This document shows positions 46,944 to 48,209 of a stretch of 53,764 bases of DNA, piece by piece. The stretch's first letter is position 1; each line of letters begins with the position of its first letter. The notes below the pieces were generated by a model, which made no database searches, had not been told where the DNA came from, and saw only the letters and a list, made by a program, of their open reading frames with translations. Made by a program: the position numbers and the translations under genes. Source of the stretch: Planctomycetota bacterium (GTDB lineage Bacteria; Planctomycetota; Planctomycetia; Pirellulales; Thermoguttaceae); assembly GCA_029550925.1 (NCBI GenBank), contig JAKPGL010000097.1, forward strand, positions 1 through 53,764, given 5' to 3'.

Positions 46944-48209
46944 ATGAATCCCGGGCGGGAGGTTGTTATTACTGGGGTAGGGGTGGTCAGTCCGATCGGC
47001 GTCGGGCAGGAAGCGTTTTGGCGGTCCTTGGTCGAAGGCCGAAGCGGCGTGCGCCGATTGACCTCCTTTGAACCGACGGCGGACCTTCCGCCCTTCGGCG
47101 GGGAAATCGCCGACTTCGACGCCAAGCAGTATGTCCGGCCTCGAAAAAGTCTCAAAGTGATGTGCCGGGACATCCAATTGGCCGTCGCTGCGGCGGACTT
47201 GGCATGGACGGACGCTCACCTGCCCGCTCAGCCCCCTCATCCAGACCGTCTCGGCGTGGTCCTGGGCGCCGAGATGATCCAATGCGAACCAGAAGAATTG
47301 GCCCCCGCGTTTCAGGCTTGTATGGAAGACGGCCGATTCGAGTTTCGGCACTGGGGTCCACGGGCCATGCCGGAAATTTTCCCTTTGTGGATGCTCAAGT
47401 ATCTCCCCAATATGCCCGCCTGCCATGTCGGCATCATCCGGGACGCCCGCGGGCCGACCAATACGATCGTGCTGGGCGAAGTGTCCAGTCTGGCCGCCAT
47501 CGGCGAGGCCTTCCGGGTCATCCAGCGTGGCCAGGCGGACCTGATGTTGGCCGGGGGGGCGAGCAGCCGAATCCATCCGGTTCTTTATGTGCGGAGTCCT
47601 CTGTGGGAGGTTTCTCGGCGGGCGGATGCGCCGGAGTCGGCCTGCCGACCTTTCGACCAAGATCGGGACGGGTTGGTCAACGGCGAAGGGGCTGCAGTGT
47701 TCGTATTGGAGTCGGCCGATCACGCCCGGGCCCGGGGGGCTATGGTCCTCGCCCGCATCCTGGCCTATGCCGAGGCGTTTGAACCCCGGTCGGATCGAGG
47801 CCCCCTTACCGGTCGGGCTGTCGAAAGGGCCATTCAGCTTGTCCTCCGGCGGGCTGGGCTTTCTCCCCCAGAGGTGGGTCATATCAACGCCCACGGCATG
47901 AGCACTCGGCATGACGACCGCATCGAGGCCCAGGCCATCCATCGCACCCTGCCCGAAACGCCGGTAACAGCGCCGAAGAGCTATTTCGGCCATTTGGGCG
48001 CGGGTTCGGGAGCGGTAGAGATGGCAGTCAGTGTGCTGGCCTTCCAGCATCAGCTCCTTCCGCCCACGCTCAATTACCACAGGCCAGACCCGGAATGCCC
48101 GATCCGGGTGGCGGCGGACACCCCCAGGCCATTGGGGGCGGCAACGGCGATTAAGCTCAGCCATGCCTGGACCGGTCAGGCTGCCGCCCTCGTTTTGGCC
48201 GGGCCGTAA
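46944..48209 (+). CDS. Beta-ketoacyl-ACP synthase homologue with Cys replaced by Glu
   Basis: The 421-residue thiolase-fold protein is aligned to FabF by [30 protein letters not shown] and [17 protein letters not shown]. At the nucleophile position FabF has Cys in TACTSG; here it is Glu (E179). Both catalytic His (H317, H350) and the Lys (K345) remain. In chain-length factors and KSQ domains the same Cys is Gln and the protein decarboxylates malonyl-ACP or acts as partner of a true ketosynthase. A Glu version is uncommon. No ACP, ketoreductase or true ketosynthase is encoded nearby. It is 15 bases after the lipoprotein gene. Confidence 0.85.

Follow-up and report, generated by a model that had tools for sequence, protein, structure and literature searches.

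The Cys-less ketosynthase homologue encoded in the window (the whole stretch of 53 764 nucleotides analysed here, from a 4.9 Mb draft genome of a member of the Planctomycetota) is probably the non-condensing beta subunit of a split (alpha/beta) planctomycete ketosynthase, acting in the manner of a chain-length factor. The protein carries a glutamate in place of the nucleophilic cysteine of FabF, and a preliminary description made from the sequence of the window had proposed that such a form might either have a new activity or act as a partner protein. We found no positive evidence for a new activity; the partner option is well supported by tandem beta–alpha gene pairs, by operon synteny and by the complementary loss of docking patch and nucleophile in the two kinds of protein.

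The product of the window gene matched both ketosynthase halves (PF00109 and PF02801) in Pfam and is FabF-like over its whole length. It missed all of the curated NCBIfam cut-offs, scoring 295.9 bits against the 493.75 bits set for fabF (TIGR03150), a cut-off passed, with 499.9 bits, by the Cys-bearing ketosynthase (alpha) encoded on contig C176 of the same genome. Alignment to solved FabF proteins and to Escherichia coli FabF from MG1655 placed Glu179 at the position of Cys163, as had been described, and placed His317, Lys345 and His350 at those of FabF His303, Lys335 and His340. Structure prediction and superposition, which the preliminary description had suggested as a check, gave the thiolase-like fold of FabF: the AlphaFold model, built from 41 related sequences and with a mean pLDDT of 93.4, superposed on FabF structures with a Z score of about 60 and an rmsd of 1.5–1.8 Å over about 400 residues. 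When the PDB was searched, both by sequence and by fold, FabF proteins ranked first, KS/CLF chains came lower, and no close solved homologue of the window protein was found. The gate of FabF, GFGG, is gone in the Cys-less proteins, in which the gate loop is degenerate.

A cysteine in close relatives, which the preliminary description held would point to a single-strain mutation or a sequencing error, was looked for and not found. Both congeners have Glu at the same site, in proteins 82% and 79% identical to that of the window; the codon is GAA in all three, three substitutions away from a Cys codon, and none of 80 further planctomycete relatives (named loci) has Cys there, the residue being Glu in 38, Asp in 38, Asn in three and Gly in one. 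The same codon in two congeners, together with the lack of Cys in all 80 relatives, rules out a sequencing error or a single-strain mutation, and a dN/dS of about 0.1 (window against congeners) indicates purifying selection on the window gene and rules out a pseudogene. The window genome contains four Cys-bearing ketosynthases and two further Cys-less paralogues, C123 (GDVSS) and C88 (REASA), so that Cys is absent from all three of its beta paralogues. Because the congeners share the codon, none of the 80 relatives has Cys and the same genome holds other Cys-less paralogues, the substitution is, on these comparisons, ancient, and the loss of Cys is spread through a bacterial lineage. At one locus in a draft genome (L041, G015), the counterpart of the window gene (paralogue A) is broken by an in-frame TAG, which is either a pseudogene or an assembly error.

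Conservation of Glu in the clade held for both congeners; beyond them, the relatives divide almost entirely between Glu and Asp. An acidic residue occupies the site in 174 of 186 Cys-less (beta) sequences, a set in which some genomes are counted twice, and some members persist with Arg, Gly or Asn there. The statement that both His residues and the Lys are kept is correct for the window protein itself, but the second His (His350) is Tyr in both congeners and is replaced by Asn (mostly), Tyr, Asp or Cys in most relatives, and His317 is lost in some members.

Table 1. Positions in the window of the ketosynthase homologue, its diagnostic residues and the adjoining gene.
Feature	Position	Strand	Basis or remark
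Paralogue A, a beta-type ketosynthase: Cys-less, FabF-like, 421 aa	46944..48209	+	ORF, Pfam, FabF alignment, AlphaFold model
Glu179 (codon GAA), aligned with Cys163, the nucleophile of FabF	47478..47480	+	Alignments, codon comparison
His317 (FabF His303)	47892..47894	+	His in 146/186 Cys-less sequences
Lys345 (FabF Lys335)	47976..47978	+	Lys in 177/186 Cys-less sequences
His350 (FabF His340), variable	47991..47993	+	Asn in 124/186, His in only 32/186; Tyr in both congeners
Basic patch RKSLKVM (residues 67-73), corresponding to FabF Lys65/Arg68	47142..47162	+	Nearly all Cys-less relatives are basic here, whereas alpha has mostly lost the patch; FabF interface from PMC7138838
Eleven-residue beta-clade signature (residues 147-157), at FabF 131-141	47382..47414	+	Alpha has P..ELEQEPNM there
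EF-hand-like lipoprotein, lipobox FGGC	46302..46928	+	Ends 15 bp upstream of the ketosynthase homologue; pairing found only in the genus

The Asp/Glu substitution itself is not new, having been published in 2009, when Rattray et al. tabulated FabF paralogues of Rhodopirellula baltica with Glu163 and with Asp163 (PMC2649909); the earlier assertion that known Cys-less forms use Gln was therefore incomplete. RB4527 (Glu163) and RB3714 (Asp163) resemble the window family in being planctomycete proteins with an acidic residue for Cys163 and with His298 kept, and RB4527 in addition keeps Lys328 and has Asn at His333, as do most of the relatives found here. The acidic residue 163, His298 and Lys328 of RB4527 (Table 2 of PMC2649909) have their counterparts in Glu179, His317 and Lys345 of the window protein, a likeness at the level of these residues. 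That study offers neither a function nor a partner for RB4527 and RB3714 and does not analyse their operons or docking patches; for the Kuenenia paralogues it discusses a link with ladderanes. In literature that included few subscription journals, searches for Glu ketosynthases, or for heterodimeric ketosynthases of planctomycetes, turned up only this study and one on ladderane expression (PMC4790861), and nothing matched a split alpha/beta arrangement with a FabZ-like/ACP operon. The new part of the finding is thus the tandem beta–alpha pairing and the operon that accompanies it.

These pairs came to light in a survey of 118 planctomycete genomes, which brought in distant members of the family marked by PLWLLKYLPNM, the signature at residues 147-157 of the window protein. 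Seven genomes, belonging to six outlying families (f39 G062, f49 G081, f53 G096, f61 G121, f65 G131, and f68 G141 and G149), have the Cys-less gene with this signature directly upstream of a Cys-bearing alpha gene on the same strand, usually with a gap of tens of bases; the alpha of G081 is cut by the contig end. The gene order in f39, f49, f65 and f68, that is, in five of the seven tandem genomes, is FabZ-like, ACP, FabZ-like, beta, alpha. Contig C176 of the window genome (L193, 2068-6229) carries this set without beta: a FabZ-like gene, a gene for an ACP that at 128 aa exceeds the usual length, another FabZ-like gene and then alpha, with the beta genes elsewhere in the genome. The C176 alpha groups with the tandem alphas of f39, f65 and f68, sharing 52–58% identity with them, and the FabZ-like/ACP/FabZ-like/alpha set is also present in most Pirellulales and, beyond that order, in some other Planctomycetia. 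Beta is unlinked to alpha in the window and its class, and adjacent to it in relatives of the six outlying families. The simplest history, as read from the paralogue tree (leaving aside the row for L200, which holds the alpha of that locus by mistake), would be that beta left the operon in the class of the window and then multiplied into paralogues A (that of the window), B and C. In family f28 (L192, L196, L197 and L198), the protein with the PLW signature retains its Cys, and its gene is in tandem with that of another Cys ketosynthase; this pair is possibly an intermediate from before the loss of the beta nucleophile.

The distribution of the two kinds of gene agrees with such pairing. With alpha called at 415 bits or above, the next scores lying beyond a gap, at 390, where FabF begins, alpha was present in 25 of the 118 genomes, among them all 21 with a PLW-type beta, in ten families; the corresponding p value of 1e-19 for co-occurrence ignores relatedness and serves as a guide only. 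The four alpha-only genomes all belong to family f18, whose alpha-like ketosynthase (L223, L224, L225 and L228) reads EVEQEP; no beta was found in them, nor were FabZ-like/ACP neighbours of the alpha-like gene. These genomes count against our explanation, as do two near-complete genomes (G024 and G033) that have alpha and paralogue C without A or B, and one draft (G035) that has paralogue A without alpha.

Alpha and beta also differ reciprocally in the residues that serve catalysis and those that receive the ACP. The Cys, both His residues and Phe400 are retained in all 58 alpha proteins. Averaged over the proteins, the net charge at FabF positions 64-69 is +3.0 for beta and +2.1 for planctomycete FabF, against −0.8 for alpha; at positions 133-139 the means are +1.0 (beta) and −2.7 (alpha). 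Alpha has lost the basic residues at FabF Lys65 and Arg68 (gap placement near 65-69 is ambiguous by one or two residues, and the residue numbers there depend on it) and has E-L-E-Q-E at 134-138; where alpha has this acidic ELEQEP motif, beta has LLKYLP, with hydrophobic residues and, at 136, Lys or Arg. Alpha and beta have in common an insertion, some 14 residues long, that is not found in FabF. In the crosslinked E. coli AcpP–FabF and AcpP–FabB complexes, the monomer without the crosslink supplies most of the contacts with the ACP; Lys65, Arg68 and Lys69 take part, as does a patch at 129-132, and the K65E mutation impairs crosslinking (PMC7138838). Docking of the ACP mostly on the non-reacting monomer would explain why the dock should be kept on one chain and the nucleophile on the other. 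If alpha and beta do pair, the loss of Cys from beta and the loss of the dock from alpha would be two sides of one change.

We infer that beta forms a heterodimer with an alpha ketosynthase having a complete Cys-His-His site, and that it may influence chain length. In the window genome the partner would most likely be the C176 protein, encoded after the FabZ-like/ACP/FabZ-like set. The basic surface of beta would dock the ACP and feed the active site of alpha, the dock that alpha would have offered to the beta site having gone; the signature segment of beta would face alpha and help to shape the acyl pocket, and Glu179 would fill the dead nucleophile site, being kept for structure. The preference for Glu or Asp might reflect a salt bridge with the conserved Lys345, although this is a guess, and the strictness of that preference in the alignments is greater than a purely dead site needs, which counts against our explanation. 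The partner of paralogue A in the window genome is the weakest step and is uncertain, since beta and alpha are unlinked in this class and three beta paralogues face one widespread alpha. It is possible, and we suggest it only tentatively, that planctomycetes have a second, dedicated system for fatty acids, comprising an ACP of its own, two FabZ-like dehydratases and a ketosynthase split so that the nucleophile is on one chain and the ACP dock on the other; in the class of the window, one alpha would then serve several unlinked betas (A, B and C), an exchange of beta setting the chain length or the substrate.

The surroundings of paralogue A do not themselves name a partner. The lipoprotein gene is as close to it in both congeners as in the window but is absent from the other loci (80 named loci), where the upstream gene is often a GNAT or a desaturase; the link to an EF-hand lipoprotein made in the preliminary description therefore stands for the three genomes of the genus and fails elsewhere, and the lipoprotein is ruled out as a general partner. 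The proximity of the two genes could suggest that the enzyme is dead and has taken on some unrelated task in regulation or as a scaffold, perhaps together with this lipoprotein, but we consider that highly improbable: the lipoprotein is missing at the other loci and is predicted to be exported, no signal peptide is visible in the ketosynthase homologue, and the ACP-docking patch is conserved throughout. In other Pirellulales a GNAT gene, sometimes of double length, precedes paralogue A on the same strand at 16 of the 80 loci, and a divergent fatty acid desaturase gene lies about 1.5 kb upstream at nine of the 80 (nine of L077-L156). A divergent desaturase is also seen upstream of paralogue A at L045, L048, L052 and L066-L069. 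Neither an operon-type ACP nor a separate alpha adjoins paralogue A at any of the 80 named loci, the sole alpha match, at L082, being the interrupted copy itself. With GNAT and desaturase genes as neighbours and no ACP or alpha nearby, paralogue A is thus a loner gene with a lipid flavour.

In place of the C176 alpha, beta might serve as a subunit of the housekeeping FabF or of a second alpha, encoded on contig C152. Several genomes do have paralogue C about 1.5–2.5 kb away from acpP-fabF, and paralogue B occurs in several Pirellulales that have a second alpha, but FabF retains its own docking patch, the EQEP motif has been lost from the C152 alpha and paralogue A itself is linked to neither, so that we think this reading unlikely. 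Paralogue C is found near fabF at L184, L185, L187 and L189 (the C of the window genome itself is in L054), with an ACP gene adjoining fabF in at least three of these genomes; this suggests that paralogue C is tied to housekeeping fatty acid synthesis, and it could pair with FabF. There is likewise a hint, from few independent cases, that paralogue B may be associated with second alpha copies.

Two further readings would give the Glu protein an activity of its own. The carboxylate might act as a general base or nucleophile in a new chemistry, for instance that of a transacylase, a hydrolase or a non-decarboxylative condensing enzyme. The prevalence of acidic residues at the site, a Ser181 that is invariant in two alignments, a nearly invariant Lys345 and the frequent position of the paralogue beside a desaturase or GNAT gene would all fit; proteins in which Arg, Gly or Asn occupies the site nevertheless persist, others have lost His317, the gate loop has degenerated and there is no hint of a substrate, and on balance this seems to us quite unlikely. 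The protein might instead be a malonyl-ACP decarboxylase resembling KSQ domains, with Glu for Gln, that makes acetyl-ACP primers. KSQ domains retain both His residues. Both are present in the window protein, together with Lys345 and the docking patch, but the second is lost in the congeners and in most relatives, the GFGG gate is gone and a carboxylate placed next to that of malonyl would be expected to be unfavourable. Decarboxylation of the FabF type requires both His residues (PMC2649909), and the usual loss of the second makes a FabF-like decarboxylation of malonyl unlikely; we regard this reading as improbable. The KSQ loading domains of modular polyketide synthases do resemble the window protein in having a ketosynthase fold with the nucleophile replaced, but the replacement is Gln rather than Glu179 and they are part of a multidomain synthase.

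The beta-subunit reading finds a close parallel in the chain-length factors (actinorhodin KS/CLF, 1tqy; Iga11–Iga12, 6kxd; ApeO–ApeC), which likewise have the FabF fold without the nucleophile and are encoded in tandem with a Cys ketosynthase, as in the outlying planctomycete families. In the ishigamide Iga11–Iga12 system, it is mainly the CLF that makes the ACP contacts (PMC8358021). The window family differs in having Glu or Asp rather than Gln, the typical actinobacterial form, in that beta is unlinked from alpha in the class of the window, in the alpha neighbours, which are FabZ-like and ACP genes rather than a polyketide tailoring cluster, and in that the closest solved folds are those of FabF. 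Since the Gln hallmark is lacking and the pairing is a proposal, we keep the window family apart from the chain-length factors proper. By gene content, the FabZ-like/ACP/FabZ-like/beta/alpha order is close to the rhizobial acpXL-fabZXL-fabF2XL-fabF1XL cluster for very-long-chain fatty acids, with its dedicated ACP, its FabZ and its two adjacent FabF-like genes (PMC11901934), although neither lpxXL nor adh was noticed in the planctomycete operons. AmcF–AmcG (KS–CYF) of cispentacin biosynthesis also combines a Cys ketosynthase with a partner without the motifs, as proposed here, but AmcG is far more reduced and the pathway is unrelated (PMC10698177).

Two other genes of the window were observed in passing. 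That at 39623-40027 (− strand) encodes an MscL channel with a C-terminal CxxC...CxxC stretch resembling a zinc ribbon and a weak match to UPF0547, and that at 40448-42067 (− strand) encodes a GroEL ending in a ten-residue sequence that is not the usual GGM-rich tail.

The lipids of planctomycetes, and the ways in which they are made, are poorly understood. If the beta-subunit reading is true, a family that was noted in 2009 and has since lacked an explanation would gain a function and a partner that can be tested, and a ketosynthase/chain-length-factor arrangement would be placed in what is apparently fatty acid rather than polyketide synthesis. The reciprocal loss of dock and nucleophile would then be a clean natural test of ACP docking on the opposite monomer, and the finding would point to a conserved FabZ-like/ACP/FabZ-like/alpha operon.
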